Under the pieces are notes generated by a model. That model was not told the origin of the DNA, ran no database searches, and saw nothing but the letters and a program-made list of their open reading frames with translations. Shown in pieces: positions 1 to 54,858 of a DNA stretch of 64,000 nucleotides. Source of the stretch: an uncultured Rhodospirillales bacterium (GTDB taxonomy: Bacteria; Pseudomonadota; Alphaproteobacteria; Azospirillales; Azospirillaceae). The stretch is taken from NCBI GenBank assembly GCA_903920145.1, contig CAIXKV010000184.1, forward strand, positions 1 through 64,000, given 5' to 3'. Each line of letters begins with the position of its first letter. The stretch's first letter is position 1. Both the position numbers and the translations under genes were made by a program.

Positions 1-74
1 GCCCGGCGTCTGAGGGCAGCCTTGATGAGTCACCATCAAGGCTCGATGGTATCATTGTCATGGTCCGCCGGTAC
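1..74 (+). repeat. Dispersed intergenic repeat, copy 1
   Basis: This block contains the hairpin CCTTGATG-AGTCAC-CATCAAGG preceded by GCCCGGCGTCTGAGGGCA and followed by a GGTATCATTGTCATGG block. The first 42 bases are identical, inverted, to the copy near 49973-50013. Related copies lie at 17033 and 54729, and a diverged one lies inside the gene at 36411. It is non-coding here and may continue leftwards beyond the window. It resembles the small palindromic repeats (REP or MITE-like) of other bacteria, but I do not recognise the family. Confidence 0.8.
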
Positions 75-206
75 AAGATGTCGTTTTCTGCGGGTCTGAT
101 AGAGTGTCATCATAGTTGATACCGTCAACGGGCGACGTTCGTGCTATTGCTAGGGTTGACGTTAGGGACGAATTCACCTCCCCGATGACGGTCAGGAGAA
201 CACGCC

Positions 207-1016
207 ATGCGCATTCGGCTGGGCTGCGAGCTGAGCTATGATTTCCCCAAGCCAACCCCAATGATCGTCATGCTGAATGTCCATTACTCGCGAGTCGCGA
301 GTCTTGAATATCCAGATCATCTGATCACCAATCCTCCGGTTCCCATTCAAAGCTATCGAGATTTATTCGGTAATTGGTGTTGTCGATTGGTCGCTCCGAC
401 CGGACGATTAACCCTAGGAACCGATAGTATTATTCAAGACAATGGCCAAATTGATCCTGTTTGTTTGGAAGCTATCCAGCACCCTGTTGAGGAACTACCA
501 TCCGAAACATTGATGTTCTTGCTGGGAAGTCGCTATTGTGAGACTGATTGCCTTTCCGAAGAAGCATGGAGACTATTCAGCAGCCTGCCGCTCGGCTGGC
601 CGCGTGTTCAAGCCATTTGTGATTTCGTTCACCGTCATGTGGTCTTTGGCTACGAGCATTCCAGAGCCACTAGAACTGCTGCCGAGACCTATGCTGAGGG
701 CCGTGGCGTCTGCCGTGATTATGCTCACCTTGCCATCGCATTCTGTCGCTGTATGAATATCCCGGCTCGTTATTGTATGGGTTACATTAGCGATGTGGGA
801 TTACCCCCTCCTTATGCTCCAAATGACTTTGCAGCATGGATTGAAGTTTACCTGAGCGGACGGTGGTGGGTTTTCGATCCCCGAAACAACGCCCCTCGAA
901 TCGGTCGCGTCATGATCGCCCAAGGCCGCGATGCTGCCGATGTCCCCCTAACCCACACATTTGGGCCCAACATGTTACTCGGTTTCCGAGTCTGGACCGA
1001 CGAGTTGGCAAATTAA
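207..1016 (+). CDS. Transglutaminase-like family protein
   Basis: The 269-residue product has an N-terminal beta-rich region (about 1-110) followed by a transglutaminase/protease-like core. The nucleophile motif GVCRDYAH is at about residue 167. The third core motif, FDPRNN, follows a W-x-E-V-Y strand at about 213-229. The position before A-W-x-E-V-Y, which is His in classical transglutaminase cores, is Ala here (NDFAAW). The start is supported by GGAG upstream (gtcaggagaacacgcc). There is no signal peptide, so it is probably cytoplasmic. The family includes peptidases, amidases and catalytically altered members, and the substrate is unknown. It is monocistronic, follows repeat copy 1, and converges on the histidine kinase gene downstream. 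Confidence 0.85.
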   Translation: MRIRLGCELSYDFPKPTPMIVMLNVHYSRVASLEYPDHLITNPPVPIQSYRDLFGNWCCRLVAPTGRLTLGTDSIIQDNGQIDPVCLEAIQHPVEELPSETLMFLLGSRYCETDCLSEEAWRLFSSLPLGWPRVQAICDFVHRHVVFGYEHSRATRTAAETYAEGRGVCRDYAHLAIAFCRCMNIPARYCMGYISDVGLPPPYAPNDFAAWIEVYLSGRWWVFDPRNNAPRIGRVMIAQGRDAADVPLTHTFGPNMLLGFRVWTDELAN

Positions 1017-1194
1017 AACACCAATAAAACAAATCACATCACTCTGCACCTAGTTACTGTCTGCGATTTTATTATAGACCACAGCCCCAACAAAGAGAAA
1101 ATCGGAGGAAGTCTTGTTGGGAGTTGTGATCACTATATATCAAGCATTAACTATTAAATAAATATAGGAAAAAATAAAAAAAGATTAAGAAAAT

Positions 1195-3942
1195 TTACTT
1201 GATAATCATCTCCATTTCCAATATAGTTTTATTTATTAAAATTATCAATTCATCTGATAAAATTTTACTACGACAAAGATTGTCACACAACAATAACTCT
1301 TGTGCTTTATTCGCAACTAGATATCCACCAAAATTAGAAAACACCCCCTTTAAAGAATGAGCAAGATTATGAATCATGGAAAGATTGTCATTATCACTTA
1401 CTTCTTTAAGTCTATAAGATTCTTTTTTACTACTAGCAATAAAGTCCATAATAAGTTGATTAAAATTATCTTTAGGCATGATTTCTCTAATTTCAGAAAA
1501 TCGTACATGATCGATTAATGGAAGATCAAATCCCTTAACATATTGATTATTGTTGATATTTATATCAGAATTTTTCTTATTTTCGGGATTAAGATGCGCT
1601 AAAACAGCATCAACATTGTCCCATTCAATTGGTTTTGTTAAAAAATCAGTTAACCCTGCGGTCATATAGGCCATCCGATGCTCAGTCAAGGCATCAGCCG
1701 TCAAGGCCACGATCGGGACATCGGAAAAGGGAGAGGGTAGCGCCCGAATCAGGCGCGTTGCCTCAACCCCATCCATAACCGGCATCTGCATATCCATTAA
1801 GATCACATCATACTGCCGAGCTGCGGCTGCCTGATAAGCCTGAGCCCCATTTTCCACCACCACAACCTGATGGCCACGGTGTTCCAGCCCTTTCTTTACA
1901 ATCATACGATTGATTGGATTGTCTTCTGCTAATAAAATAATCATCGACTGCCCAAAAGAAATTTTTTCCGGTTCGGCATGAGGAACCTCATAGTCCACAG
2001 ACTCCACAAAACATGTGAAATAAAATCGAGAGCCATAACCAGGACGGCTCATAGCACCAATTTCGCCTCCCATCAACTCAACCAAACGCTTACTAATCGC
2101 CAATCCCAATCCGGTACCGCCAAATTTCCGCGTTGCCTCGATATCAACCTGAGAAAATGGCTTGAACAAACGAGATAAATCCTCATCTGAAATGCCAATT
2201 CCAGAATCTTCGACTTCAAACCTTAATAATTGACGCTGATCAATTGTATTATAAGTTAATGTAATTTCGATAGAACCATTTCGAGTAAATTTCACGGAGT
2301 TTCCAATCAAATTGCTGAGAATTTGCCTAATTCTGATTGCATCTCCACGCACTAACAGACGATCAATGTCATGAGTATTAAACTTTAATAAATTTAGACT
2401 CTCTTCGGCCCTCGGAGAAAAGAGGCTAATAGTTGCTTTTACTACATCAATCACATCAAATATGCTATATTCCAATGTTAATTTATCCGCTTCAATTTTT
2501 GAATAATCCAATATATCATTAAGAATTGTTAAAAGCCCGATAGCGGACGTGTACATAATATCAATATATTTTTTTTGTTCAACATCGATAAATGATCTTT
2601 TTAATATTTCAGATATACCAATAATTCCTGTCATTGGGGTTCTTATTTCATGGCTCATCATAGCTAGAAAAGCTGATTTTGCATGATTCGCAGCTTCAGC
2701 AACTTTTTTTGCCTCCAACAATCGTTGACTTTCTTGAGCCAATTCGGCGGTACGTTCCTGCACCCGATCAGCCAGCAACAAGCGGTCTTCGGCCAACATA
2801 CGGACCGCAACATTTCTTTGAACTACAGTTCTTGCAAGAAGTAGTAATATTATCACCATTAAAATAATAAAAGAAATAATAAATAATATCTGAATACGAT
2901 ATTGTTCAAATAATGTAACCTGACGGTATCTAATAATACTATTTACAGGTAGCATGTTTTGTGATAAATTCCAGCGAGTAATTTGTCTCCAGTCATACAC
3001 ATGATCAAAGTTACTTTCAAAATAAGTATTTTTATTAATAATAATATTTCCTATTGACTCCCCAACTTTTTCACTGCTAAGAACATAACCGCCAACAATT
3101 CCACTTCCTATGAGCGACTCCCATTGACTAAAAATGGGTGCAGATGCCCTTTCTGATAATTTTTCTGCTACACTATAAGGAGCTAGACTATGACCATGGC
3201 CATCATTAAAAATAAAAAGATAATAAATTATTGTCTTAGCAGGAAGTATAGATACCTTATCTAGCAATTCATCTAAATCTATATCTAAAAAATACTCAAT
3301 ATGAGTAGGTATTTGTATTTTTTTAATCGCTTCTCTAAATGCCGATATCCGTATTTGTCCAGATGGACTTTTTGTTTCTCCGGCAACAATTATTTGATCA
3401 GCACCACTCACTGTTAAAGCTTCTTGTATTGAAGTCAAATAGTCGGTCTGAGCTAAAATAACTTCAGCGCTAACATCTGCTTTTTGAAGGCGCTCCAGGT
3501 CAGTTGTTGATATTTCAGCATAAATACGCCGTGCGGCTCCAAAAACAGCCTGATGCTTAGCAACGAATGCAGCCGCAGGCCATCCATGACCAACCACAAC
3601 ATCAAAGTGTATACTCGCATATTTTGTAATAATAAAATTTGTCAATCCACTTTCAACGTCAGCAGAAGGCAGTCGTGCTCCATCAAGATATTCGTAATAA
3701 ACATTATGATACCCTGATCTATAATTAAGAATATTATTTAATCCGTCTTCTATTTTTATCTGATTTGGCAAATCCTTTGCATATGATGAAATATAAATAA
3801 TGTTAAGGGGGTGATCGACACTGGCTTTTACAGCATTTTCCATCATCAATACAATGCATAATGAGAAAAATATAAATAATCCCACCAACTTTGAACTGAT
3901 GGAATACTTTCTAAGTTTATCTGTGAAATTTTTTTTATTCAT
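1195..3942 (-). CDS. Hybrid sensor histidine kinase with periplasmic ABC-type sensor domain
   Basis: The 915-residue membrane kinase has an N-terminal membrane segment (about 17-40). A periplasmic region of about 310 residues follows, resembling the substrate-binding domain of PF04392-type sensors. A second membrane segment (351-370) leads into a short coiled coil. The HisKA domain carries SHEIRTP with the phospho-His at 431. The HATPase has its N-box at IGNSVKFT (546-553) and G boxes at DSGIGI and GGTGLGL. A receiver domain has the acidic pocket AEDN and phospho-Asp 717 (LMDMQMP). A C-terminal Hpt domain carries His862 (AHSLKG). The phosphorelay would run H431-D717-H862 to an unseen regulator. 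The coding DNA is strikingly AT-rich outside the receiver segment (about 1660-1960). No dedicated response regulator is adjacent. Confidence 0.93.
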   Translation of the reverse strand: MNKKNFTDKLRKYSISSKLVGLFIFFSLCIVLMMENAVKASVDHPLNIIYISSYAKDLPNQIKIEDGLNNILNYRSGYHNVYYEYLDGARLPSADVESGLTNFIITKYASIHFDVVVGHGWPAAAFVAKHQAVFGAARRIYAEISTTDLERLQKADVSAEVILAQTDYLTSIQEALTVSGADQIIVAGETKSPSGQIRISAFREAIKKIQIPTHIEYFLDIDLDELLDKVSILPAKTIIYYLFIFNDGHGHSLAPYSVAEKLSERASAPIFSQWESLIGSGIVGGYVLSSEKVGESIGNIIINKNTYFESNFDHVYDWRQITRWNLSQNMLPVNSIIRYRQVTLFEQYRIQILFIISFIILMVIILLLLARTVVQRNVAVRMLAEDRLLLADRVQERTAELAQESQRLLEAKKVAEAANHAKSAFLAMMSHEIRTPMTGIIGISEILKRSFIDVEQKKYIDIMYTSAIGLLTILNDILDYSKIEADKLTLEYSIFDVIDVVKATISLFSPRAEESLNLLKFNTHDIDRLLVRGDAIRIRQILSNLIGNSVKFTRNGSIEITLTYNTIDQRQLLRFEVEDSGIGISDEDLSRLFKPFSQVDIEATRKFGGTGLGLAISKRLVELMGGEIGAMSRPGYGSRFYFTCFVESVDYEVPHAEPEKISFGQSMIILLAEDNPINRMIVKKGLEHRGHQVVVVENGAQAYQAAAARQYDVILMDMQMPVMDGVEATRLIRALPSPFSDVPIVALTADALTEHRMAYMTAGLTDFLTKPIEWDNVDAVLAHLNPENKKNSDININNNQYVKGFDLPLIDHVRFSEIREIMPKDNFNQLIMDFIASSKKESYRLKEVSDNDNLSMIHNLAHSLKGVFSNFGGYLVANKAQELLLCDNLCRSKILSDELIILINKTILEMEMIIK

Positions 3943-4088
3943 AGCCTGAAATTCACAATTTCATATATATAATAATGTTAAATTATAATTAATAAAAATA
4001 ATAATTTCTTGGATATTGACATTTTTTTGCATAATCTCCACTCCTATAATAAAAATAGAATCCTAACTCGTCCATAATATTTTGCTCT

Positions 4089-4769
4089 CTACCGATAAGA
4101 TGCGACATTTTGCATCATTTCCTCATAATCACCGTCTCGCTCCAACATTTTACGACAAGGCGGTATCCACATGAGGCGTGACTGAATTTTTTCACCCTTT
4201 TCCCAAACTAGCCAAGCATAACCCGTTGCTGTTGATGCTTTTTGATTAAGTCGTCCCTTTACCATAGGTACACGTTCGGCAAATTGCGCAAATTTTGTTG
4301 GAGGAAGAGACTCAAATAATCGTTGGTATCGACCAATACTTTCAATAAATACTGTTCTAGCTAAAATTGCTACGCCTTCATTAGCAATTTTTAACGCATG
4401 AATAATAAATTCTTCACTAAGACGAAAAGGAGGATTAGTAACAATCCAATCAATATCTTTTTTACCAATAGGATAGCTCATAAAATCATTGACTTGCCCG
4501 CAACCATAATCAAAAATATCCGAATAGAAAACATTTCCAAAGTACTCTTTTAACACTTTCACCATATGACCAGCACCACAAGCAGGCTCTAAGCAAGTTT
4601 TTTCTATAAATTTATTTTTATCACTAACAACATATTCCATTAGAGCACGAGTTGCCCACGGCGGCGTTGGAAAATCATCTAAGCTATCTTTAGACTCGAC
4701 GCGCTGTGCCATGACTGCATATGACACATTACCAGCTTCTGGTCTACGAATAAACATTACTTTTTTCAT
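4089..4769 (-). CDS. DNA methyltransferase-like protein (N6-adenine type)
   Basis: The 226-residue class I SAM-dependent methyltransferase fold has an SAM-binding motif EPACGAGHM (61-69) and the catalytic motif IV TNPPF (111-115). These are typical of amino-group DNA methyltransferases. The early segment FPTPPWATRAL is typical of phage-type enzymes. The start at 4769 is preceded only by a weak AGAAG; Met20 (4712) is a plausible alternative because similarity to the family begins just after it. No restriction endonuclease partner is visible, so it looks like an orphan methylase, possibly phage-derived. The AT-rich composition, shared with the kinase downstream on the same strand, fits acquisition by transfer, although that is inferred. 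Confidence 0.75.
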   Translation of the reverse strand: MKKVMFIRRPEAGNVSYAVMAQRVESKDSLDDFPTPPWATRALMEYVVSDKNKFIEKTCLEPACGAGHMVKVLKEYFGNVFYSDIFDYGCGQVNDFMSYPIGKKDIDWIVTNPPFRLSEEFIIHALKIANEGVAILARTVFIESIGRYQRLFESLPPTKFAQFAERVPMVKGRLNQKASTATGYAWLVWEKGEKIQSRLMWIPPCRKMLERDGDYEEMMQNVASYR

Positions 4770-5100
4770 CTTCTAAAGCCGTATGTTGGCCACATGAACA
4801 ACGTTCTGAAGTTTACCCTCCTTTATGAGGAGCTGCTAGTGTTTTGAACGACTCCAACATTTGACACCGATATAGGGATATTCCCTAATGGATCACCGTC
4901 GCCAGAATCGCATAGTTCCTGGGAGCGCGGCTATATCCTAGCCCCACAAGCCGCCGAAATGCCTGCGCTCCTGTCAAATAAACGAACACAACCCACGAGA
5001 AGAGTCTTTCCACCCATCCCATAAGGCTCGCATCCGTGTTACCCTGACGGGGTATGGGCCTGTCCACCAATAACAGCCCTAGCGATATACCGGAGGACCA
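4770..5100. other. Divergent intergenic region
   Basis: This lies between the methyltransferase (minus) and the DUF4337 gene (plus). It must hold promoters for both, but I see no confident -35/-10 pair, operator or small gene. A clear ribosome binding site (GGAGG, 5 bases before the ATG) sits at its right end and supports the start at 5101. Confidence 0.5.
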
Positions 5101-17032: not shown

Positions 17033-17092
17033 CCGTTGATGCCGACACATCAAGGCTCGAGGGTATCATCGTCATGGCTCGCCGGTATCACA
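17033..17092 (+). repeat. Dispersed intergenic repeat, copy 2 (half element)
   Basis: The hairpin TTGATG-CCGACA-CATCAA is followed by GGCTCGAGGGTATCATCG and TCATGGCTCGCCGGTATCA. The order and spacing match copy 1, but the GTCTGAGGGC flank is missing. On the minus strand the block reads TGATACCGGCGAGCC, and its TGA is the stop codon of the mutase gene. Confidence 0.8.
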
Positions 17093-20360: not shown

Positions 20361-20754
20361 GTATTCCTCCGGGATTTAAAGCAACAAGGGGGCGGAGCGT
20401 GGTTTCGTCGGCTGCGAGCCAAACGCCCACGCTTCCAGTGTTTTATTGTGGGACTCGACATTAAAATCTGTTATTCAGAGGGCTTATATTAGAAACAACT
20501 GTTAACTCTGCATGAACATGGGCTCTTACCTCGATAATAACCCTGGCTCTGAGTTTGGCATGAAAATGGACAAGCGGGATAGTCCCAAGGGTTAGCGAAA
20601 AACGCCGACCTGGGTCCACAATTCCGTCATGGGTTCAAAAAAGAGCCTTTGCGGGCTTGATGCCCACATATCAAGGAGGAAAAAGCGAAGAAGCTTTCTC
20701 ATCCTTAGTTGCAATGATGAAGAGAGCTATCTGATAAAAAGTAAAAACCTTTTA
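20361..20754. other. Intergenic region upstream of icmF
   Basis: This 394-base stretch separates the icmF start from the end of the next receptor gene (both minus). It should hold the icmF promoter. I see no gene. A weak hairpin, TGATAAAA/TTTTATCA (20732-20757), overlaps the receptor stop codon and could help termination on the minus strand. A short CTTGATG...ATATCAAGG stretch at about 20665 vaguely resembles the repeat hairpin, but the flanks do not match. Confidence 0.4.
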
Positions 20755-25653: not shown

Positions 25654-27801
25654 TCAATAGCGTTCGAAAGCGGCGTCTTCGGAATCTTTATGCGAAGCAT
25701 GCTCATCAAGCTTGAGTTGAAAGCCCTTGCCCCCACTGCTCGCCCCGGCCAGCGGACGCCCGGCCGTCGCCCCCCGGTGGCCGGGCTCGGAACGACGGGG
25801 CGGCTCGGCGGGGATCCGACGAACGAGCCGTTCGGCCCGGTTTCCCGAACGTTCGGGCAATGATGGACGCTCAGGCGGTAAGGCCGTAGGCCGTTGATGG
25901 CCGTTGCCGTTATTTTTCCCTCCCACTCCAACCGCAGCCACGGAAAAGAACGAAATCGTAGCCTGGAGCCGTTGAGCCTGTGCCGCTAATTCCTCAGACG
26001 TTGACGACATCTCTTCGGCGCTGGCGGCATTTTGTTGGGTCACTTGATCGAGCTGTTGAATCGCAACATTAATTTGTTCGGCCCCAGCATTTTGCTCGCG
26101 CGAAGCCGACGTGATTTCCGCCACTAAACTTGCCGTATGTTGAATATCCGGAACCAATTTGGTTAGCATTTGCCCGGCCTGTTCCGAAACCCCCAAGGTT
26201 TGAATCGACAAAGCACCGATCTCAGCCGCTGCCAACTGGCTACGCTCGGCCAATTTGCGAACTTCCGACGCCACCACGGCAAAGCCGCGCCCGTGCTCCC
26301 CGGCCCGCGCCGCCTCAATGGCAGCATTCAGCGCCAGCAAGTCGGTTTGGCGGGCGATTTCCTGAACGATGGTAATCTTTTCGGCGATGGTCTTCATGGC
26401 CGCGACGGCTTTGGCCACAGCTTCGCCACTTTTGCTGGCATCGGCTGCCGATTGGCGAGCAGTCTTCTCGGTTTCAGTGGCGTTATCAGCGTTCTGGCGA
26501 ATGTTAGCTGCCATCTCCTCCATGGAACTGGACGCTTCTTCGGTGGAGGCCGCCTGTTCCGAAACCCCCTGGGACAAGCTATCGGCGCTGGCACTGAGTT
26601 GCTCACTTCCCGCTGCAACATTCTCAGCCGCAGAGCGCACATCGCCTACCACATCGCGCAACCTCTCAACCATCACATTGAGATGATCGATCAAATCGCC
26701 GATCTCTTCCCGTCCGCGATATTCGACTGTTGCGCCCAGATCTCCATCGGCCACGGCGCGAGCCAAACCGGCTGCCCGCCCTAATCCTCGGGCAATCGTC
26801 AAGGAAATCCAAAGGGCGACCCCAATTCCGATGACAATCGAGGCCAAGGCCATAATCATCAACGAGGTCCGCGAAGTGGTATAGGTCTGTCCAGACTCGT
26901 CCACAGCCTCTTGCAAGGATTGACGGTTGAGTTGAATGATGCTGTCTAACGATCCTTCAATTCGCTTGATCAACTCACTATCGCGCCCGGCTGACAAAAC
27001 TCTCGCTTTTTCATCGCCATTTTCGATGGCCAAATCCCGAACCTGTCGATCAAGCGCAACAAACCCGTCCCAACCTCCGGCAAATCGTTGAAATTCAGCC
27101 CGAGGCCCGACGGCGAGGTGATCCCGCACCGCTGCGATCGTTGTCTGGATTGCGCGAAGCTCGCTCTCAATATGTTGATTCTGATCTTTGAGTGCAGCAT
27201 CGTCTTCGACCAATAGAAAGGCCCGTTCTTCGCCCTGAATTCGCAATAGATTTTCCGGCAACTCCGTTAAAACCGTCAACGTTGCGGCATCTGTTCCCGA
27301 TGTTACCGTTCGAATTATATCTTTAAGGGCATTGAAAGCGACCACAAAGGCTTCATCAGCCTTACCAAGCGATAACGCGATTGCCTTAGCACTCGAATTC
27401 AAAGTTGCAAGCTGGACAACTTCATCTTCTGACTTAATCAGATCATCATGAAATTGGGCTATTTCTTCTAATTTTTTACGAATATCTCCTAAAGAAATGC
27501 CAAGCAGGCGTGTCATTTCGTCTTGAATATCGGCTCTTTTCTTCTTAAGGTCGTTCGCAAAATGAGCAATTTTTTGATCATCGGTTTCATTAACTAAATT
27601 CTTCTCGGATCTTGCGAGCAATGAAAAGTCATTCTCAAGCCGCAAAATTAACCGTTGGCTTAACACCGGCCCGCTCACGGCCACATCGAATCGTTGGTTA
27701 ACGACCCCCAGATTATCCACTGCGAGATAGGCCGAAACCGCCGCCAATATCAGCAGTGCTGCAAAAGAAGCCGCCAGCCGAGCCCTGATGGTAAAACGCA
27801 T
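25654..27801 (-). CDS. Methyl-accepting chemotaxis protein with C-terminal pentapeptide
   Basis: The 715-residue receptor has membrane segments at about 9-27 and 313-334 with a roughly 285-residue helical periplasmic sensor. A HAMP domain (about 335-388) and the signalling hairpin follow, with the tip [19 protein letters not shown] (E502 near the turn). A Pro/Arg-rich flexible tail (about 622-690) ends in AFERY, which fits the CheR/CheB-tethering pattern x-[HFYW]-x-x-[HFYW]. It is a close paralogue of the receptor at 28937-31261, with long nearly identical hairpin DNA but a shorter coiled coil. GGGAGAG upstream supports the start. The gene follows cheW by 48 bases. Confidence 0.96.
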
Positions 27802-28959: not shown

Positions 28960-31261
28960 CGTCGGCATCCTTATGGTGGGCGGTGGTGGCATCTAATTTC
29001 AGGGCAAAGCCCTTAACCGGACCCAAGGCATGAGATACGCGGTGGGTGTCGGCAATCGCATCATATTTGCTCCCCCCCCCCGCCGGCTTGGCAGCGGCGT
29101 TAGAGGGTCGTCCCGTGGCTGGGCGAACCGGCGGTCGCTGCCGCCCGACCGGCTCTCCTCCCGGCCTCCGGTTTGGCCGTTCTGGCGGAGGCGGAGACGG
29201 AGGCGGAGGCGACGATGGCGTCTGGGCTGGCTGGCGCGGAGCCACTCCCCAGCCATTCTGGGAGACATCAGCTAGAGTGAAGAAGGCAATGGTCTCACGC
29301 AATTGCTGGGCCTGAGCCGACAATTGCTCGGATGTTGCCGACAATTGCGTTGAGATTTCGGATAACTGTGCCGATGTTGCGGATAACTCTTCGGTGGTTG
29401 AAGACATTTCTTCGGCACCGGCGGCATTCTGTTGCGTGACCTGATCAAGCTGCTGAATTGCGATATTAATTTGTTCGGCTCCAGCATTTTGCTCACGCGA
29501 GGCCGAGGTAATTTCAGCCACCAGTGTCGCTGTTCGCTGGATATCAGGAACCAATTTGGTCAGCATTTGCCCGGCCTGTTCCGAAACCCCTAGGGTTTGA
29601 GTCGACAGGGCGCCAATTTCAGCCGCTGCCAACTGGCTACGCTCGGCCAATTTGCGAACTTCCGACGCCACCACGGCAAAGCCGCGCCCGTGCTCCCCGG
29701 CCCGCGCCGCCTCAATGGCAGCATTCAGCGCCAGCAGGTCGGTTTGGCGAGCGATTTCCTGAACGATGGTAATCTTCTCGGCGATGGTTTTCATGGCCGC
29801 CACCGCTTTGGCCACAGCCTCACCGCTCTTGTCAGCATCAACCGCCGATTGACGAGCAATCTTTTCGGTTTCGGTGGCATTATCGGCGTTCTGGCGAATG
29901 TTAGCCGCCATCTGCTCCATGGAACTGGACGCTTCTTCGGTGGAAGCTGCCTGTTCCGAAACCCCTTGGGATAAACTGTCGGCACTTGCGCTTAACTGTT
30001 GACTGCCGGTTGCGACATTGCTGGCTCCAGACGAAACGCTTTCCGCACCCGAGGCCACACTTCCCGCCCCTGCCGCAACATTTTCAGCGCCAGTCACAAT
30101 ATCTTCAACCACTTGACGCAAACGATCGACCATTCCATTCAAATGATTGATGAGATCGCCAATTTCTTCCCGACCTCGATAATCCACGGTGGCGCTTAGA
30201 TTGCCTTCAGACACCGCTTGGGCCAAGCTGCTCGCTCGGTTCAATCCCCGAGAAATAGTCAGGGAAATCCATAACGCCACCCCAAAACCAACAATGATCG
30301 ACGCCAAGGCCATAATCAGCAAATTGATCCGAGAGGTCTCAAATGTATTACCGGCAGCAGCCACGGCCTCTTTCAAAAGGCCATGATTCATGTCGATGAT
30401 CGATTTGATCACGGCGTCGATCTTATCTTGAAGCTCTTGGTTCCGGCCCGATAATAAATCCGTGGCATGGGCCGTACCGTTTTCCACGCCATAGGCCACC
30501 GCTTTTTTATGAAGCGGCAAAAAAGCCTCCCAGGCGGTTTGGAATTGCTGGAATGACGCGCGCTGTGCTGGACTGACATGCTCGCCCAAGGCAACCAATT
30601 GATTCTGAATAGCCTGAAGCAAATGATCGTGATGCTGATTATACTCGGCAATAACTTTGTCATCTGTTAAAAGAATTAACAGAGATTCGTAATATTGAAT
30701 GCGCTGAATTTCGGCAGGAAGCTGTGCCAGAATAGCGGCCCCTTGGGGGTCGGCAGCGCCGCCGCCAGCGTCCCCAACTGCCGACAACCGCTGTATAACC
30801 AGATCAAAGGCATCTCCGGCCTTGCCAACCAAAAGCTCTGTTCCACGAGCTGTCGAATTTTGCATGGCGTAACGGATCAAATTGTCTTGTGATTTTATCA
30901 ATTCCGCATAAAGAGGCTCCATTTCATCCAATTTTTTACGTCCTAAGTCCGTTCCGACCTCGCGCAAATACGTTATTTGCCCCTGTATTTCGGCACGCTG
31001 CGCAATAATTTGATCTGTAATTCGTTTTATTTTATCATCCTCGGTTTGCAGCACCAACTGTTTTTCGAGGGCTGAAAGATTTAAGAAGTCTTTCCGCAAC
31101 TTTTCTTCAATTAAAGCTCGAGTAACCGGACCATCAACGGTTTTATTAAAGCTTTCATTTACAGCCCCAAGATTATTAACGCCAAGATATGCAGAAATGG
31201 CGCTAAGAAATAACACCAACCCGAATGCCGCCGCCAGCCTTGCTTTGATGGTAAAGCGCAT
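28937..31261 (-). CDS. Methyl-accepting chemotaxis protein with lengthened signalling coiled coil
   Basis: The 774-residue receptor is paralogous to the one at 25654-27801 and aligns with it residue for residue to about position 398. It has membrane segments at about 10-28 and 313-334, a helical periplasmic sensor and a HAMP domain. Relative to the paralogue it has two insertions of exactly 21 residues, 399-419 and 627-647, one on each arm of the hairpin. A Pro-rich tail ends in AFERY, a CheR/CheB-tethering-type pentapeptide. AAGGAG 8 bases upstream supports the start. It lies between cheA and cheW. Confidence 0.96.
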
Positions 31262-35205: not shown

Positions 35206-36414
35206 ATGTCCCGATTCGACTCCATTTTCGCCGCCCATCTCGACGCCCTAGCCTCCACCCGCAGGCTCCGTGCCTCACACCCGTTGTCTCCGGCGGATCC
35301 AGGGCGGGTCTGGCGCAGCGGGCGCTTGCTACTGAATTTCTCGACCAACGACTATCTTGGCTTATCTCGCCATCCAATGCTGATCGAACGATCCCGAGAC
35401 TGGACTGAGCGTTGGGGCACTGGGGCCGGCGCATCGCGGCTGGTTTCAGGAACCCTTGATGCTCACCTCCAGGTAGAAGCCAAGTTGGCCCGTCTCAAGG
35501 GAACCGAAGCGGCGCTGCTGTTGGCCTCCGGCTGGCAGGCCAACGCTGCGATCCCTCGGGCCTTGTTTGATCGGGAGGTTCTGGGGACCGAAGCCCTCGT
35601 CTTCACTGACCGCCTGATCCATGCCAGCCTGCATCACGGATGCCAAGCGGCGGGTGTCCGGCAAATCCGCTTTCGCCATAACGACCTGAATCACCTGGAA
35701 GACCTACTGAAGGCTCGCTCTGGTCAAGCGGGACGGCGCTTCATCATCACCGAAAGCGTGTTCAGCATGGATGGCGATCGGGTTGACTTGGCGGCTCTGA
35801 CGGCTTTAGCCGACCGCCACGATGCCTTCCTTTATCTGGACGAAGCCCACGCCACCGGCGTTCTCGGCCCCGGCGGCATGGGGCTGGCGGCAGCCTTTCC
35901 CGGTCGGGTCGATCTGGCGATGGGCACGTTCAGCAAAGCGTTGGGCGGGTTCGGCGCCTATGTCGCGGGTTCACGCGCTCTTTGCGACCTTTTGACCAAC
36001 CGTTGCTCGGGTTTCATCCATGCCACAGCGCCTCCACCGGCTCTTTTGGGGGCCATGGACGCCGCTTTAGACCTCATCCCAACCCTGGATACCGAACGGG
36101 CGCATCTCATGACTCAGGCCGGACGACTGCGGGCCGCTCTGACGGCCATAGGCGTCGATACCGGCGGCTCCAGCACTCAAATCGTACCGGCTGTGATCGG
36201 GGACACGGGGGCGGCCTTGGACGCAGGACACATGTTGGAAGAGGCCGGTATTCTGGGTATTGCCATTCGTCCACCCACCGTTCCTGCTGGCACCAGCCGC
36301 CTGCGCTTTGCCCTGTCTGCGGTTCACCAACCTGCTGATTTGGATCAATTAATTGCCGCTGTTACTGCCATTCTCCCGGCCTTCCTCTTCACCCGTCCAA
36401 AAGGACCGTCATGA
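35206..36414 (+). CDS. bioF: 8-amino-7-oxononanoate synthase
   Basis: The 402-residue PLP enzyme condenses pimeloyl-ACP (or -CoA) with L-alanine, the first ring-forming step of biotin synthesis. Family features are NDYLGLSRHP near residue 46, GTGAGASRLVSGT, the DEAHATGVLGPGG segment and the PLP-lysine motif TFSKALGG. The start at MSRFDSIF (35206) fits the family length; the frame is open from 35023 but that part is not family-like. The stop overlaps the next gene by 4 bases. Confidence 0.95.
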   Translation: MSRFDSIFAAHLDALASTRRLRASHPLSPADPGRVWRSGRLLLNFSTNDYLGLSRHPMLIERSRDWTERWGTGAGASRLVSGTLDAHLQVEAKLARLKGTEAALLLASGWQANAAIPRALFDREVLGTEALVFTDRLIHASLHHGCQAAGVRQIRFRHNDLNHLEDLLKARSGQAGRRFIITESVFSMDGDRVDLAALTALADRHDAFLYLDEAHATGVLGPGGMGLAAAFPGRVDLAMGTFSKALGGFGAYVAGSRALCDLLTNRCSGFIHATAPPPALLGAMDAALDLIPTLDTERAHLMTQAGRLRAALTAIGVDTGGSSTQIVPAVIGDTGAALDAGHMLEEAGILGIAIRPPTVPAGTSRLRFALSAVHQPADLDQLIAAVTAILPAFLFTRPKGPS

Positions 36415-37133
36415 GTCACGTCACCACCCGAAGCGGGCCAAGGCTGGTCCTGGTTCACGGCTGGGGCTTTGATCACCGGCTTTGGCAGGGACTGTGCTCG
36501 GCCTTGCCCGACCTGGACGCGGTGACGATTGACCTCGGTTTCTTCGATCCCCCCAACTGCCCGGCCTTCGCCCCGGATCGCCCGGTGGTGGCCATCGGCC
36601 ATTCCTTGGGGGTTCTCTGGCTGCTGCACACCCGCCCCTTTCCTTGGTGCGGACTGGTTTCGATCAACGGCTTTCCCCGCTTTACCGAAGCCCCTGGTTA
36701 CAGCCCAGCGGTACCAGCCCGACTGCTTGACCGTATGATCCGCCGACTTCCGGCAGACCCGGCTGGCGTCACCCAAGAGTTCCGGCGACGCTGCGGAGAT
36801 TCGGATCCTCTCCCGGATCGCCCAGTTCCTGACAGCCTGCTGGCGGGCCTGACTTGGCTGCGGGATTGGGACGCCCGCCCGGCGCCTGAGGGCAATCTTA
36901 AAGGGTCACTATCAAGAATACTCGCCCTTTCAGGCGATTCTGACCCAATTCTGCCCGCTGGTATGGGAGATCACTGCTTTAGCGCCTTCCCGATGGTGAC
37001 ATCAATCCGCTGCGAGGGAGGCGGGCACCTTCTGCCTCTAACCGCCCCCACATGGTGTGCCGGGCACATTCGCACTTTCCTGAAAGCTCTGCCGATCGGC
37101 GACGACGCGCAGCCTCTGGCCCTTGATCGTTGA
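36411..37133 (+). CDS. bioH: Alpha/beta hydrolase, BioH-like pimeloyl-ACP methyl ester carboxylesterase
   Basis: The 240-residue hydrolase has the oxyanion segment VHGWGFDHRLW, the nucleophile elbow G-H-S-L-G, an acid in SGDSDPILP and the catalytic His in GGGHLLPLTAP. Position in the operon (4-base overlap with bioF) and fold make it the likely esterase that releases pimeloyl-ACP from its methyl ester, complementing bioC further along. Sequence identity to E. coli BioH looks low by eye. A diverged copy of the dispersed repeat (36871-36917) lies inside the reading frame and encodes part of the cap-to-acid loop (about 154-170). Confidence 0.82.
   Translation: MSHVTTRSGPRLVLVHGWGFDHRLWQGLCSALPDLDAVTIDLGFFDPPNCPAFAPDRPVVAIGHSLGVLWLLHTRPFPWCGLVSINGFPRFTEAPGYSPAVPARLLDRMIRRLPADPAGVTQEFRRRCGDSDPLPDRPVPDSLLAGLTWLRDWDARPAPEGNLKGSLSRILALSGDSDPILPAGMGDHCFSAFPMVTSIRCEGGGHLLPLTAPTWCAGHIRTFLKALPIGDDAQPLALDR
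36871..36917 (+). repeat. Intragenic diverged copy of the dispersed repeat
   Basis: Aligned without gaps to the minus-strand copy at about 49985-50015 and to copy 1, 38 of 47 bases match by my hand count. The shared core is CGCCCGCCCGGCG-y-CTGAGGGCA followed by CTT...GTCACyATCAAG. The left flank CGCCCGCCC, shared with the 49941 copy, argues against chance. It is in frame within the bioH-like gene. Confidence 0.6.
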
Positions 37134-49107: not shown

Positions 49108-49148
49108 ATTTTTATAGTCGTGCGTATGACGAATGCCCCCTGACCCTC

Positions 49149-49177: not shown

Positions 49178-49196
49178 CTGGGGTTCTGAGTCCCTA

Positions 49197-49236: not shown

Positions 49237-49429
49237 GGAATAGCCATAGGGGCTTTGAATAAGGTCAGAAAGATCGTCTTGGAAGCGCGGGTGCCCCGCC
49301 CGCCTTCGCGGTCTGCCGTCGCCCTCTCGGCACGGGATCGCGACTGACTGTCGCACCCTGCCTTCTCGACATTCCCTATAGCCATAACCCACGTTATGTC
49401 ATGCGCGCTTTTATCGGGGAATGCTGGAC

Positions 49430-49840: not shown

Positions 49841-49910
49841 GGCGCGAGAGCGTGTTCCGATTCCGCCGGCAACTCCCTGTATGTTGACAAGTCCCCATAT
49901 TGAAACCCAG

Positions 49911-49932
49911 CCGGTCGTTGGCCAACGACCGG
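49911..49932. repeat. Perfect 22-bp palindrome
   Basis: CCGGTCGTTGGCCAACGACCGG is an exact self-complementary sequence 70 bases after the hemerythrin stop. It has no loop and no T-run, so it could be a cruciform or protein-binding site or an unusual terminator. It directly precedes repeat copy 3. Confidence 0.6.
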
Positions 49933-49940
49933 GGATGAGG

Positions 49941-50113
49941 CATTGTTGTGGCTCGCCAGTATCATAATCGAACCTTGATGGTGACTCATCAAGGCTGCCC
50001 TCAGACGCCGGGCGGGCGCATCCGCGCCCTTGGCTTCGCGTCCACGAGGACGCGGGGCCGCCGTCGCGGCCCGATACCGGCGATGTGTCAGTGTCAGGGC
50101 TCGCCGGTGTCAT
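49941..50113 (-). repeat. Dispersed intergenic repeat, copy 3 (long form)
   Basis: On the plus strand it has GGCTCGCCAGTATCA, then the hairpin CCTTGATG-GTGACT-CATCAAGG (49973-49994). Then comes CTGCCCTCAGACGCCGGGC, a GC-rich middle, CCCGATACCGGCGA and a closing GGCTCGCCGGTGTCA. The closing block ends 4 bases before the ATG of the next gene. The long form is parallel, in reverse orientation, to the copy at 54729-54858. Confidence 0.8.
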
Positions 50114-50117
50114 TCGA

Positions 50118-50912
50118 ATGACCAACCTTGAGGATGTGACTCGGCAGTTGACCGACGTGGCTTGGGCCGTGGGGTCGGTGCTGCTGGAGATGCAAGATGG
50201 GGCGCTGGGGGTGCGGCTCAAGGGGCCGGCGCAGGTGGTGACGGCAGCCGACGAACGGTCTCACGAGATGATGGTTGCTGAATTATCCCGGCGCTTTCCC
50301 GGCGTGCCGATGGTTCTGGAGGAACAGGAAAATCCGGTGGTCTTGCCATCCCGTTATTTGGTTGCCGACGAATTGGATGGTACGGCGATTTACGCCTGCG
50401 GGTTGTCCGATTGGGGGGTCACTTTGGCCTTGGTCGAAGGCGGGCAGCCGGTGGCTGGCGTGCTGCATCAACCGATCCGGGGCGAGACGGTGGCGGCGTG
50501 GCGCGGTGGCGGAGCGTGGCGGAATGGAGGCCGCGTGCATTTAAATCCCGGCCTGAGCGTGGCGGACAGTGTGGCCTTGGTGGAATTTAATCGGTTTTTG
50601 GATGCGGATGCGGTGGTTTGGCTGGACCGTTTGGCTCGCCAGTCGTTGACCTTGCGGGCATTGGGGACCGCCGTTGGTGCCGCCATCGAGATGCTGGCTG
50701 GTCATGCCAGTGTCTATCTGAATTGCCAGGGCGCGAAGGTTTGGGATTTTGCGGCGGCGGCGGTGGCGGTGGCGGAAGCCGGCGGGGTGGCGGTGGCGTT
50801 GAATGGCAGCGCGCCGGATTGGTCGGTGGTCCCCCAAGGAGTCCTCTTTGCGGCCAATCCGGCTGTGGCTGCGGAGGTGTTGAGGCTCAGAAAGGTTGCT
50901 GCTCCTCTATAG
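50118..50912 (+). CDS. Inositol monophosphatase family protein (second copy)
   Basis: The 264-residue protein of the IMPase superfamily has a metal-binding L-E-E-Q-E segment (about 69) and D-E-L-D-G-T (replacing the usual D-P-I/L-D-G-T). The C-terminal W-D-F-A-A-A motif is also present. It is distinct from the HisN-type gene at 5822. The substrate is unknown. The start at MTNLEDV (50118) has no clear ribosome binding site and immediately follows repeat copy 3, so translation initiation may be unusual. It converges on the receptor gene, with 16 bases between the stop codons. Confidence 0.85.
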   Translation: MTNLEDVTRQLTDVAWAVGSVLLEMQDGALGVRLKGPAQVVTAADERSHEMMVAELSRRFPGVPMVLEEQENPVVLPSRYLVADELDGTAIYACGLSDWGVTLALVEGGQPVAGVLHQPIRGETVAAWRGGGAWRNGGRVHLNPGLSVADSVALVEFNRFLDADAVVWLDRLARQSLTLRALGTAVGAAIEMLAGHASVYLNCQGAKVWDFAAAAVAVAEAGGVAVALNGSAPDWSVVPQGVLFAANPAVAAEVLRLRKVAAPL

Positions 50913-50928
50913 GCTTAAGCCGTTCCGG

Positions 50929-53298
50929 TCATGCCCGGATTGAGGCCAAGAAATGCTCGGCTTCGCTTTGGAGGGCGGTGAATTCTTCAGCCAACCGACC
51001 CGCCGAGGCCATCATCTCCATGGCCGAGCATCCAGTGTTTTCGGCAGACCCGGCCATAACGTCAACGCTGTCGGCCACTTCGCGGGAGGTGGCTGAAGCG
51101 TCGCCGACGGCAGCCACGATCTCTCGTGTATGGCCGAGCTGGTCGGACACCGACGCCGCAACCTGGATGGAGAGGGTTTCAACCTCGCCGATGGTTTCGC
51201 GGATCGAACCGATGGCGCCCACCACATCATCGGTGGCGCCCTGGATGGCTAAAATCTGATTGCCGATGTCTTCGGTGGCCTTGGCCGTTTGATTGGCAAG
51301 GCTTTTGACCTCGCCCGCCACCACGGCAAAGCCCTTGCCAGCCTCACCAGCCCGCGCGGCCTCGATGGTGGCATTCAGCGCCAGCAAATTGGTCTGGCTG
51401 GCGATCCCGCTGATCAGTTTAACGATTTCGCCGATCCGGCGGGAGCTTTCGGTGAGGGCCTGAACCGCCACATCGCTGGTTTCGGCCCGGTCGGCGGCGC
51501 GCTTGATGGCAGTGCCCGAGGCGGCTACCCGGTCGCCAATCTCTCCGATAGAGGTTGACAGGCGTTGTGAAACGTCAGTGACCACGCCCACCACTTCGGC
51601 GGCGCGGCGGGCCATGGACGACGATTGGGCGGCCTGGTGCCCGACATGGGCGGCGGTGGTCCAGAGACCGAGGGCGGCATCTCGGATTTGCTGGCTATTC
51701 GCGCCGACCGAGGTCAGCGCCTTGCCGAAAGCCGCGTTGAAGTCGTGGGCCACGGTGGCCAGTGCCTCCTGGCGTTGTGCGGCGGCGCGCTGTTCGGCCT
51801 CTCGGGCTTCGGCCTCTAATGAGCGCCCCCGGATCATCTCGTCCTTGAACACCTCCACCGCCTGGACCATTTCCCCGATCTCGCCCGTGTGTGTCCGGTC
51901 GGGTATCGCTGCGTTCAGATCGCCATGGGCCAACCGATCCATTACGCCCGTGATGCTGCGCAAGGCGCGGATGATCGAGCGGGCCTGGAAGAAGCCAAAC
52001 AGGCTAGCCAGGGCCAAAGCCAACGTTCCGCCGAACACCAGAATAAGAGTGGTGGTGTTCCGCATCTCGGTTCGCCGCTGGTCAAGCTGGCGCTGAAGGT
52101 CGGTGGTTTGGGTCAGCAAGGCGGCGCTCTCCCGCTGATTCGCGGCGGAGATTTCGGCTTGCTGGCGCGTGATGTCGACGATCCGTGGAAAGGCGTCAGT
52201 GAACTGCTTGAGAGCGGTCCGCATGCTGGCAACCACGGCTGGCGCGCGAACCCGTTCGGGCAAGGTCATCAATTGGTTGAGTTGGTCATCGATGGCGGCG
52301 GCGGCAGCCAGGATGGTTTCGCCCGAACCATGGGCGCCTCGGGAGCCAACGTAATCGGTCTCGGTGATCTGGATCACCGCCAACTGACGCAGAATCTCGC
52401 GCATGGCGTCTTCCGCGTGGGTGGCTTCGAACAGTGTGGTCCGGGCGTCGTTGGCGGCTCCGACGGCGCTTTCGTAATCGGCGGCGGCGGCGTTGGCGAC
52501 GTTAAAAACCCGAACCGAGAGCCTCTTAAAACTGTCCTCAACGCGCGTCCGGGCTTCGGCAGTGTTGGAGTCGGCGGGTTTGCCCAAAGCTTCGATCAAA
52601 GACAGGAGCGCCTGTTGATAATCGAGGATCATGGGGGGCAATTCTGGATCGGCGCCCGCCGTTCCGGTCATTGCCGCCAGTTTAGCCCCTTGGCGCGCCA
52701 TTAATGTTGTGTAGGCTCGGGCGGTGTTAGCCTGGGTGGCTTCTTGGGTGAAGCCGTAAACAGTTTGGGCCAAGCGCGCGTTGAGCATGGCCTTGGCCAC
52801 CGCTGCGCTGGTTTCACTGGCGGCCAGGCTGTTTCTCATTTCGGTGTCAGTCTGAGCCAGCCGGGATTCGAGGGCGCTGCGTTGTTCGATTTGCTGTCGG
52901 CTGGCCTCTTGAATGGCGGCGGACAGGTCGCTGGTGGCGTGTTTGGCGCGGGTGGCTAGATCAATTCGGACGGCTTCCATGCGGCGATACTCAGCAAAAG
53001 CCGCTTGGTGCTCTTCGAGTCCTTGCTGAATGTCCCGTGCTGCCACAGCCGTTGTTTCGGCGATGGCCGCTTTAAGGTTGCCATCAACACGGTCGGCGAC
53101 TTTGGACTCGCTGTTGGCCCGGAACTCGGCCTCGGCCAAGAAGGCCGATTGCGCTGAAAGTGCCGCATGGTCGGCCCGAAGCGCCCGCTCGGCGCTGGAA
53201 TTAAGCACACTGATGCCAACGTAGGCGCAGACAACCAGGATTGCGCCATTCAGGACGGGAATTCCGGCGGCAACGCCGATCCTTGTAGCGATATTCAT
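50929..53298 (-). CDS. Methyl-accepting chemotaxis protein with large periplasmic domain
   Basis: The 789-residue receptor has an N-terminal membrane segment (about 8-30). A very long helical periplasmic region follows to about 415, then a second membrane segment (LVFGGTLALALASLFGFF). A HAMP domain and the hairpin complete it, with the tip [18 protein letters not shown]. There is no C-terminal pentapeptide (ends LASIRA). The start at 53298 (MNIATR) has AGGAA 5 bases upstream; the frame extends to 53379. It is divergent from a periplasmic binding protein gene, a possible ligand partner. Confidence 0.94.
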   Translation of the reverse strand: MNIATRIGVAAGIPVLNGAILVVCAYVGISVLNSSAERALRADHAALSAQSAFLAEAEFRANSESKVADRVDGNLKAAIAETTAVAARDIQQGLEEHQAAFAEYRRMEAVRIDLATRAKHATSDLSAAIQEASRQQIEQRSALESRLAQTDTEMRNSLAASETSAAVAKAMLNARLAQTVYGFTQEATQANTARAYTTLMARQGAKLAAMTGTAGADPELPPMILDYQQALLSLIEALGKPADSNTAEARTRVEDSFKRLSVRVFNVANAAAADYESAVGAANDARTTLFEATHAEDAMREILRQLAVIQITETDYVGSRGAHGSGETILAAAAAIDDQLNQLMTLPERVRAPAVVASMRTALKQFTDAFPRIVDITRQQAEISAANQRESAALLTQTTDLQRQLDQRRTEMRNTTTLILVFGGTLALALASLFGFFQARSIIRALRSITGVMDRLAHGDLNAAIPDRTHTGEIGEMVQAVEVFKDEMIRGRSLEAEAREAEQRAAAQRQEALATVAHDFNAAFGKALTSVGANSQQIRDAALGLWTTAAHVGHQAAQSSSMARRAAEVVGVVTDVSQRLSTSIGEIGDRVAASGTAIKRAADRAETSDVAVQALTESSRRIGEIVKLISGIASQTNLLALNATIEAARAGEAGKGFAVVAGEVKSLANQTAKATEDIGNQILAIQGATDDVVGAIGSIRETIGEVETLSIQVAASVSDQLGHTREIVAAVGDASATSREVADSVDVMAGSAENTGCSAMEMMASAGRLAEEFTALQSEAEHFLASIRA

Positions 53299-53525
53299 GG
53301 TTCCTGATCCCGCTTCCATGCCGACAGTTCGACCGTAAACGGAATTTAGTGCAAAGCGATAAAAAAATACAGTATCCATTGGATAGTAAGCGAAGCGAGG
53401 CCATCATCGCTATAACATGCGGTGGCTCCCCGGCAAAAAAGAGGGCTGAAATAAGCCACTTGGTGATCGTTTCGCAGATCCATTCGCATTCTGCGGGCAA
53501 GAAATAACCAGAGAAAGGGCATGGG

Positions 53526-54731
53526 ATGAGGAAAGGGTTGGGATTAACGCTGGCAGTGGCGTTGACCTTGGGTTCGGTTGGTTCGGCACTGGCCGATCAG
53601 ACGGTCAAGATCGGTGTCTTGACGGATCTGTCCGGCCTTTATTCGGAGCTGGCCGGCGCTGGTTCGGTCCTGGCAGCCCGGATGGCGATCGAGGATTTCG
53701 GGGCCGAGGCCAAGGGATTAAAGGTCGAATTGGTCTCCGCCGACCATCAAAATAAGCCTGATATTGGCGTTGCGATTGCTCAAAAATGGTACGATCAGGA
53801 CGGCGTTGATTTGATTGTCGACATTCCCAATTCAGGGGTGGCATTGGCAGTTAACCAAGTTGCGCGGGACAAGAACAAGGTTTTGATGGTTTCCGGAGCC
53901 GGATCCTCGGACCTGACCGGCAAATCCTGCTCTCCGAACACTGTCCATTGGACCTATGATACTTGGGCGCTGGCCAATGGTACGGCTAATGCGGTGGTTG
54001 CTTCCGGCGGTAAGAGCTGGTTCTTTTTGACGGCGGATTATAAATTTGGTCGTGATCTAGAACATGACACCAGCGCGGTGGTGACGGCTACCGGGGGGCG
54101 GGTGTTGGGCGACGTGACGTTTCCGCTCAATACCCCGGATTTCTCGTCGTTTCTGGTCCAGGCTCAGACCTCGGATGCCAATGTCGTCGGACTGGCCATG
54201 GCCGGCGGTGACGTGTCCAACGCCGTCAAGCAAGCCGCCGAGTTCGGTATCGTCGAGGGGGGGCAGCGGTTGGTTGGGATGTTGGTGTTTATCACCGACA
54301 TTCATGCATTGGGTCTCCATGCGGCTCAAGGATTACAGTTCACCGCCGCGTTTTACTGGGACAAAGACGACCGGACTCGCGCCTTTGCGACGCGCTTTGC
54401 CGAGGCGAATCACGGCATTCATCCGACCATGGTTCATGCTGGAGTCTATGCGTCGGTGCTCCATTATTTGAAGGCCGTGGTGGCTCTCCAGGATAAAAGC
54501 GACGGCAGCAAAGTTGTTGCAAAGATGAAGGCGCTGCCCACCGATGATCCTCTGTTTGGCCAGGGATCAATTCGGATCGATGGTCGGGCTTTACATTCTT
54601 TGTACCTGTATCAGGTCAAGAAGCCGGAGGAGTCCAAAGGGCCGTGGGATTATTATAAATTGGTTGAAACCATTCCGGCGGATCGCGCTTTCCGTCCATT
54701 GGACCAGGGCGGTTGTTCATTGGTCAAGTGA
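53526..54731 (+). CDS. ABC transporter substrate-binding protein (branched-chain amino acid type)
   Basis: The 401-residue periplasmic protein has a signal peptide (cleavage after SALA, about residue 23) and a Peripla_BP_6/LivK-like fold. Family segments include VKIGVLTDLSGLYSELAG, NKPDIGVAIAQKWYD and WFFLTADYKFGRDLEHD. It binds amino acids, amides or similar small molecules. No permease genes follow, so it may serve the divergent chemoreceptor as well as, or instead of, transport. Its stop codon TGA is the first three bases of repeat copy 4. Confidence 0.93.
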   Translation: MRKGLGLTLAVALTLGSVGSALADQTVKIGVLTDLSGLYSELAGAGSVLAARMAIEDFGAEAKGLKVELVSADHQNKPDIGVAIAQKWYDQDGVDLIVDIPNSGVALAVNQVARDKNKVLMVSGAGSSDLTGKSCSPNTVHWTYDTWALANGTANAVVASGGKSWFFLTADYKFGRDLEHDTSAVVTATGGRVLGDVTFPLNTPDFSSFLVQAQTSDANVVGLAMAGGDVSNAVKQAAEFGIVEGGQRLVGMLVFITDIHALGLHAAQGLQFTAAFYWDKDDRTRAFATRFAEANHGIHPTMVHAGVYASVLHYLKAVVALQDKSDGSKVVAKMKALPTDDPLFGQGSIRIDGRALHSLYLYQVKKPEESKGPWDYYKLVETIPADRAFRPLDQGGCSLVK

Positions 54732-54858
54732 TACCGGCGAGCCATAACAATGACGCAACGCCGGTATCGGGCTGCGGCGGCGGTCGGTTCGCCCGTGCAT
54801 GCTCGTCCGGCATCTGAGGGTGGCCCTGATGAGCCAACATCAAGGCCCAGTGTTATGG
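54729..54858 (+). repeat. Dispersed intergenic repeat, copy 4 (long form)
   Basis: It starts TGATACCGGCGAGCC, whose TGA is the stop of the preceding gene. Then come CGCCGGTATCGGGCTGCGG, a GC-rich middle and CCGGCATCTGAGGG. The hairpin region CCCTGATGAGCCAACATCAAGGCC closes the element. The order matches copy 3 read in reverse. The hairpin arms have diverged slightly. Confidence 0.75.

Follow-up and report, generated by a model that had tools for sequence, protein, structure and literature searches.

A TNA-duplicating hairpin repeat with a covarying core, amplified in an uncultured Azospirillaceae bacterium, and its likeness to the CIR repeats of Caulobacter

Introduction

The CIR repeats of Caulobacter are summarized in a 2007 review as intergenic alphaproteobacterial sequences of approximately 110 bp, composed of two long arms and a linker, with TA termini and, in some members, a GANTC at the loop of one arm (Delihas 2007, PMC2229807). 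In the table of that review their target duplication is entered as "?", and their mobility is left open. Here, we describe a dispersed hairpin repeat present in the first 64,000 nucleotides (the window) of contig CAIXKV010000184.1 from an uncultured Rhodospirillales bacterium of the family Azospirillaceae (assembly GCA_903920145.1), and we follow it through its own genome and through other Alphaproteobacteria. The repeat duplicates a TNA target of 3 bp, and its copies are in all likelihood (a probability of about 0.82) those of a non-autonomous transposable element of approximately 140-170 bp, a miniature inverted-repeat transposable element (MITE). A literature search, with most subscription papers outside its coverage, returned no title or abstract recognizable as an account of this element or of a TNA duplication in CIR.

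Results

Abundance and anatomy of the repeat

A first-pass annotation of the window had recognized a modular hairpin repeat in four blocks, all of which are found where it placed them; the repeat is real, and its extent goes far beyond those four copies. With up to three mismatches allowed, the window contains five occurrences of the annotated hairpin, compared with an expectation of 0.26 from shuffled sequences. Across the whole genome (4.26 Mb in 269 contigs, the window being contig C184 from base 1), the genome-wide search proposed by the annotation gave 460 forward and 466 reverse matches and none in a reversed control, the near-palindromic pattern counting most copies on both strands. Thirty complete copies, with a median pairwise identity of 92.5%, served to build a profile, which was applied to a sample comprising the window, contigs C1-C38, one contig in five from C40 to C235, and two contigs selected for their transposase matches (C169 and C266), with at most 20 kb taken from each; since this profile can score a copy on both strands, counts are given once each. 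It delineated 268 separate pieces (272 raw matches) in 973,354 bases, covering 29,445 bp or 3.0% of the sample, the window itself being copy-poor with four matches. Extrapolation to the whole genome yields approximately 1,200 pieces, an overestimate because contig ends split copies. A strict pattern for the core around hairpin D (GCCAA-stem-GGA-stem-GCCCGGCGNNTGAGGG) matched 209 and 196 times on the two strands, with no match in the control. The repeat is amplified in the source species, with the many similar dispersed copies that characterize a MITE.

Among 120 ends of 60 whole contigs, 64 lie inside an element, where 4.9% would be expected. This concentration at more than half of the examined ends could indicate an assembly artefact, in which the collapsed ends of one ordinary transposon were mistaken for a repeat family. 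However, 1.45 Mb of the genome contains 90 complete copies in contig interiors, each with its own flanks, and related elements or the core are present in genomes assembled into one to a few contigs and in finished plasmids, so that such an artefact is scarcely credible.

A complete unit, measured from TACC to GGTA in the 30 copies, spans 139-165 bp, mostly 147-148 or 164-165, and reads from left to right TNA, TACC with terminal hairpin A, hairpins B, C, and D, terminal hairpin F, GGTA, and TNA. Hairpin B is GGGCCGC-GACG-GCGGCCC, and hairpin C exists in two alternative forms, GCGTCC/GGACGC or GCGCGC/GCGCGC. Between C and D stands GAAGCCAA, joined in some copies by a block of approximately 17 bp; hairpin D (GGGCGC-GGAT-GCGCCC) is followed by GCCCGGCGTCTGAGGG, and hairpin F (GCCTTGATG-N6-CATCAAGGC) by CGATGGTA and then TNA. 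The terminal hairpins start with TACC and frequently carry TGAC/GTCA in the loop, enclosing the three GC-rich hairpins B-C-D; TACC...GGTA together with the mutually inverted hairpins A and F constitute terminal inverted repeats of the MITE kind, short and imperfect. The description of the family as modular is borne out by whole, truncated, nested, and tandem copies in either orientation, as well as by the two C hairpins and the optional block. GANTC is present in 322 of 420 F loops of the source genome (each counted on both strands), and around 116 core copies in other genomes it shows no excess over other pentamers. At four loci of the source genome (L099:18821-19000, L107:11781, L044:1-120, and L081:19026-19154), other end-hairpin types (TACCAACGGCCCTAGACAATGATCCGTGCCGTTGGTA; TACCAATGGCCTTGGAC...) adjoin the same core, suggesting a reshuffling of cores and ends.

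Insertion with a 3-bp target duplication

Ninety complete copies with flanks, each counted once, were collected from 1.45 Mb of the source genome. TNA stands on both sides in 70, and the two trinucleotides are identical in 53 of these 70 against 31% expected from the margins (p = 2e-14); the first sample alone gave 34 of 44. Identity so far above chance indicates insertion with a 3-bp duplication, and hence a MITE and not a repetitive extragenic palindrome (REP): the target duplication is TNA, and the element is transposable. The first-pass annotation had spoken of a REP/MITE type, of which the MITE part stands, given the many copies and TNA duplications, and the REP part falls. A nested copy (L061), flanked by TTA on either side, interrupts the F hairpin of an older one. 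A joint-matching search for paralogous empty sites of 53 complete copies returned three matches, of which only this nested copy counts; the match at L091 was discarded as a self-match due to a tandem arrangement, and that at L064 has 22 gap positions and lies in its own locus. A single solo F unit with TNA flanks was found, and its flanks are identical.

The same evidence bears on the possibility that a REP-associated tyrosine transposase (RAYT) mobilizes the repeats as a REP or REPIN family. Short palindromes in many intergenic copies near gene ends fit such a family, the inversely oriented terminal hairpins are reminiscent of a REPIN, and the source genome encodes one RAYT-like protein. IS200/RAYT chemistry, however, is not known to leave a target duplication, and a 3-bp duplication is present here; moreover, the element has no invariant GTAG or CGTC foot, both N of its tail GGCGNNTGAGGG being variable and its termini being TACC. 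PF01797 matched two proteins in the genome, an IS200-type TnpA and the RAYT-like protein, the latter scoring 80.3 bits against the NCBIfam cut-off of 80 for REP-associated transposases. The RAYT-like gene, together with a second, truncated copy of its 3' part (L032, contig C169, 1-2250), is flanked by a different repeat, CTGTCACCGTAACC. No element ends were present within the 3.4 and 2.7 kb scanned around the two loci, and the element copies on the same contigs are at least 9 kb away. The RAYT was accordingly rejected as a partner, being flanked by its own repeats at a locus without element ends; the search for a TnpA-REP partner suggested by the annotation was negative in the source genome, and a RAYT-driven family is very improbable. 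The other PF01797 locus (L031, contig C266, 1291-1878) encodes a 143-aa IS200-type TnpA beside a short divergent open reading frame (ORF) resembling the start of TnpB.

Copies in the window

The window holds the following copies and fragments; I and D numbers denote inverted and direct repeats.

1..51, + strand: right part of a copy, with tail GGCGTCTGAGGG, F hairpin, GGTA at 48-51, and TNA = TCA at 52-54 (profile, model 97-147)
55..74, - strand: degenerate terminal-block fragment TGGTCCGCCGGTA adjoining the copy at 1..51 (sequence; repeat D7)
17034..17065, + strand: diverged F hairpin (one mismatch) with right end CTCGAGGGTA (D7, 90% to 34-73)
17066..17091, - strand: left-end block TGATACCGGCGAGCC in opposite orientation, adjoining that F hairpin (I5, 92% to 54728-54753)
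36871..36916, + strand: fragment with D 3' arm, tail, and 5' part of the F hairpin (profile, model 91-136, E 1e-6; I3)
49950..49966, - strand: left-end block from another truncated unit, immediately adjoining the next copy (sequence)
49967..50108, - strand: near-complete A-B-C-D-F copy with both ends decayed (profile, model 2-143, E 8e-45)
54729..54731, + strand: TNA flank (TGA) at the left end of the next copy, being the stop codon of ORF 53526-54731
54732..54853, + strand: copy that has left hairpin A and the F hairpin, its core being rearranged (profile, model 1-145, E 1e-18)

The copy at 1..51 is incomplete, its left side being cut by the contig start. The inverted match between the start of the window and the block near 50 kb is present but joins 1-41 with 49973-50013, 41 bases and not the 42 previously given, as base 42 differs between the blocks; repeat I2, which contains the match, is 47 nt long at 98%. 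At 17033, the F hairpin and end blocks exist as described, without the GCGTCTGAGGGC flank attributed to them, and the hairpin at 17034..17065 was not called by the profile. The fragment at 36871-36916, which had been overlooked, lies within ORF 36411-37133, whose product is alpha/beta-hydrolase-like with Pfam matches just below the curated cut-off; approximately 15 residues of this protein may be encoded by the D arm, tail, and F hairpin. The copy at 49967..50108 begins with CACC in place of TACC, and its core was scored by the covariance model described below at 49998-50074. One further hairpin match, at 20655-20676, has two mismatches and no accompanying block, and is probably due to chance.

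The gene at 53526-54731, encoding a periplasmic binding protein, ends in GTCAAGTGA with the same TGA in the same-genus genomes G001 and G003, where it is free of the element; as the sequence past the stop differs altogether there, these loci are not an exact empty site for the insertion at 54729. Elsewhere in the window, two blocks of approximately 380 bp (25981-26358 and 29378-29755) are 85-98% identical and lie in two adjacent long minus-strand ORFs resembling methyl-accepting chemotaxis proteins (below equivalog cut-offs).

Placement relative to genes

Coding regions were taken from a simple codon-score gene caller and overlap was counted base by base over 1.45 Mb. Only 3.8% of element bases fall in called coding sequence, although 79% of the sampled bases are coding. 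A called gene stands on both sides of 233 of the 407 pieces. Convergent gaps, which total 22,987 bp when elements are excluded, hold 70 of these pieces; co-directional gaps (111,206 bp) hold 127 and divergent gaps (51,142 bp) 36. Plotted against gene ends, as the annotation had recommended, the copies avoid coding sequence and prefer gene 3' ends. Element ends coincide with stop codons in 33 of 270 cases, against 0-3 at other offsets. As a control, 6.9% of non-coding TNA sites outside elements are stops; in the copies, stops account for 43 of 374 TNA ends and, where TNA stands on both sides, for 13 of 70 sites (p = 0.001 for the latter). Strong stop-codon targeting was rejected, the excess over this control being only modest, and stops look tolerated rather than strongly targeted. 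Where the element inserted at a TGA or TAA stop, it sits exactly on the codon and the 3-bp duplication restores it; such insertions are harmless because the stop is preserved.

Alternatively, the element could serve the host at gene 3' ends as a structured RNA or DNA, for example in mRNA protection, termination, or chromosome organization, its mobility being secondary. In plasmids, where the surroundings of 13 copies were taken and 10 of them had gene annotation, nine of the 10 have an annotated stop codon at most 140 nt away (six sense, three antisense), as such a function would lead one to expect; the nearest stop to the tenth is approximately 680 nt away. In the source genome, however, 68 copies are sense and 59 antisense to co-directional neighbors, which leaves a strand preference as RNA unsupported there, and no T-run of an intrinsic terminator follows any consensus hairpin. 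Copy number, too, varies strongly between related genomes, with 405 strict cores in the source genome against none found by the covariance model in G003 and G004 of the same genus.

Structure and covariation of the core

The B-C-D core was aligned in 29 rows hand-picked from 70 (23 of 27 from other genomes and six of 43 from the source genome), the four excluded rows from other genomes having B or C displaced or missing. Standard pairs occupy 97.6% of the cells for B and C, a percentage flattered by this selection, against 85.0% when shuffled and far less with slid partners; these figures include hairpin D, which is nearly invariant here. Cells changed on both sides number 59 against 17.6 shuffled, and those changed on one side number four. 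Across the class, hairpin D occurs in 55 distinct sequences, 35 of them paired by Watson-Crick rules throughout and representing 28 different stems; the remaining 20 contain nine G-T, three A-C, and 17 other mismatches, including several tandem G-A/A-G pairs. Because the pattern used to collect this set holds the unpaired GCCAA, GGA, and GCCCGGCGNNTGAGGG constant and leaves the stems free, the constancy of these motifs is partly imposed. Compensatory change was accordingly observed in B and C within the family and in D across the class. The tandem G-A/A-G mismatch, a known stable non-canonical motif, occurs in several D stems among genomes G041, G124, G161, G275, G367, and G444. No Rfam family matched the window at gathering score, and only sub-threshold matches appeared in four element-bearing loci.

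Covariation around constant unpaired motifs, together with the nine G-T to three A-C mismatches of the class-wide D stems, is in keeping with a host function of the structured element. In the source genome, the D-stem deviations are about equal (25 G-T and 21 A-C), and in the family alignment the 59 to 4 ratio of two-sided to one-sided changes suits a DNA-level palindrome as well as an RNA. Taken with the orientation, terminator, and copy-number data above, a primarily host-serving element appears rather unlikely. The conserved structure and loops suggest that something reads the core.

Distribution in other genomes

A covariance model of B-C-D (29 sequences, 78 positions) matches 62 of 82 genomes of the window's family; in a sample of 289 genomes across the class it matches 27, four of which are in the window's family. 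The number of matches per genome was capped in these searches. The strict core pattern was found in 27 of 385 sampled Alphaproteobacteria genomes (reversed control, 0), and 24 of the 27 hosts lie outside the window's family, in 13 other families. A draw of 398 genomes across the phylum included eight with a match, all of the same class. Named hosts are Azospirillum and Niveispirillum (Azospirillaceae) and, by a 29-nt match, Tistrella; plasmid searches added little beyond these three genera, with short weak matches in sphingomonads and others.

The 116 distinct core copies from elsewhere include 14 with TNA-TACC on the left, 14 with GGTA-TNA on the right, and six with both, and in all six the two TNA are equal. 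Six control word pairs gave 1-5 left and 0-5 right matches, with one co-occurrence, in which the TNA were unequal. The left loop contains TGAC in all six of these copies and the right loop contains GTCA in four. An end-hairpin pattern, TACC...GATGAG...GACTCATC, is absent from the source genome and occurs in nine of the 385 class genomes (two genomes have one control match each). Among 20 loci taken with this pattern and the loci already examined, 17 distinct elements outside the genus combine this end hairpin with GGTA on the right. Both flanks are TNA in 12 of them, and the two are identical every time (6 genomes, 6 families); three of these 12 are shared with the six both-ended core copies. 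The other five are flanked by CAA/TAA, TTG/GTC, CTA/AGG, TAA/TAG, and ATT/TTA. The same architecture and TNA duplication therefore exist in several other families of the class.

Tandem core copies with a spacing of approximately 105-130 bp were observed in other genomes (G124, G384, L172, L173, and L176). No match was found in phages. Two IMG/VR contigs filed as viral, L115 and L116, carry the element; L115 is 98.4% identical to contig C5 of the source genome over 3.9 kb and is probably bacterial chromosome.

Search for the mobilizing enzyme

Two DDE families were searched genome-wide, and paired ends were scanned in 973 kb. PF01609 gave five matches and PF13586 one, coinciding with one of the five. 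The transposase at L119 was rejected as an unrelated remnant with two ordinary element copies nearby. Among genes recurring beside 91 loci of other genomes, whose largest clusters comprise 8, 6, and 5 loci, no candidate mobilizer stood out.

Discussion

Our analysis indicates that the repeats are copies of a non-autonomous MITE. A DDE-type transposase encoded elsewhere and cutting with a 3-bp stagger would recognize the terminal hairpins and move the element in trans, and the B-C-D structure may be kept either because it is needed for the element's spread or because it acts at mRNA 3' ends. The use of TNA by IS5/IS1031-like elements offers an analogy only.

Several observations weigh against such a transposon. 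Among complete copies, 17 of the 70 flanked by TNA have non-identical flanks, and 20 of the 90 lack TNA on at least one side. At sites with identical flanks, stops amount to only 8 of 53 (p = 0.03). No PF01609 or PF13586 locus examined has matching element ends around its transposase, and of 11 TACC...GGTA pairs located 0.6-3.5 kb apart in the 973 kb, 10 are the ends of ordinary copies; the eleventh (L044) is no better than controls, four control word pairs having given 1, 2, 2, and 7. The IS5/IS1031 elements that use TNA are not known to start with TACC. Conservation is also stronger inside the element than at its ends, which is unusual for a MITE.

The internal conservation raises a further, tentative possibility, namely an ancient class-wide lineage of CIR-like transposons whose survival would depend on the structured B-C-D core, with its constant unpaired GCCAA, GGA, and GCCCGGCGNNTGAGGG, being read by a protein as folded DNA or RNA. 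If true, such dependence would represent a mechanism of transposition or host benefit not seen in other MITEs. With a covarying core and constant loops in hand, the question of which factor reads the structure becomes testable.

The TNA duplication and TACC ends supply a mark of mobility for a kind of repeat whose target duplication was entered as "?" in 2007, and scattered intergenic repeats of many Alphaproteobacteria are joined into one modular family. The element also explains the poor assembly of such genomes, and the covariance model can be used for their annotation.

Comparison with known systems

The closest points of reference lie among short intergenic repeats. The GTAG and CGTC REPs, as far as their published description extends (PMC3733652), likewise have hairpins with a constant unpaired motif and stand mostly downstream of genes, in convergent or co-directional gaps, but they measure 20-40 bp and the GTAG type is RAYT-linked, whereas the present element is approximately 150 bp long with a target duplication and without a RAYT link. 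The TA-type MITEs ERIC, RUP, and Correia/NEMIS, in the outline given by the 2007 review (PMC2229807), share with it a length below 200 bp, terminal inverted repeats, target duplication, and many copies; their target is TA, whereas the present element uses TNA (3 bp), has hairpin ends, and is best conserved in an internal chain of covarying hairpins.

CIR, which we know by its description, shares with the element its alphaproteobacterial host, intergenic position, two arms with a linker, and TA termini. The form in genome G361 (116 bp; TACCAGACCTCGATGAGTCTGACTCATC...) fits that description closely in its size of approximately 110 bp, arms with linker, and GANTC loop; a TACC arm and a B-like hairpin (GCGCGACTGCGCG) are common to it and the longer forms, and it has no match to the D-core pattern. 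The window form differs from the CIR of the review in its length of 139-165 bp against approximately 110 bp, in having hairpins C and D as well as the GCCAA-D-GCCCGGCGNNTGAGGG core, and in its TNA target duplication where the tabulated CIR entry is "?". The family may thus be an expanded form of the Caulobacter CIR repeats: the window form looks like a five-hairpin CIR, although we do not claim full membership for it.

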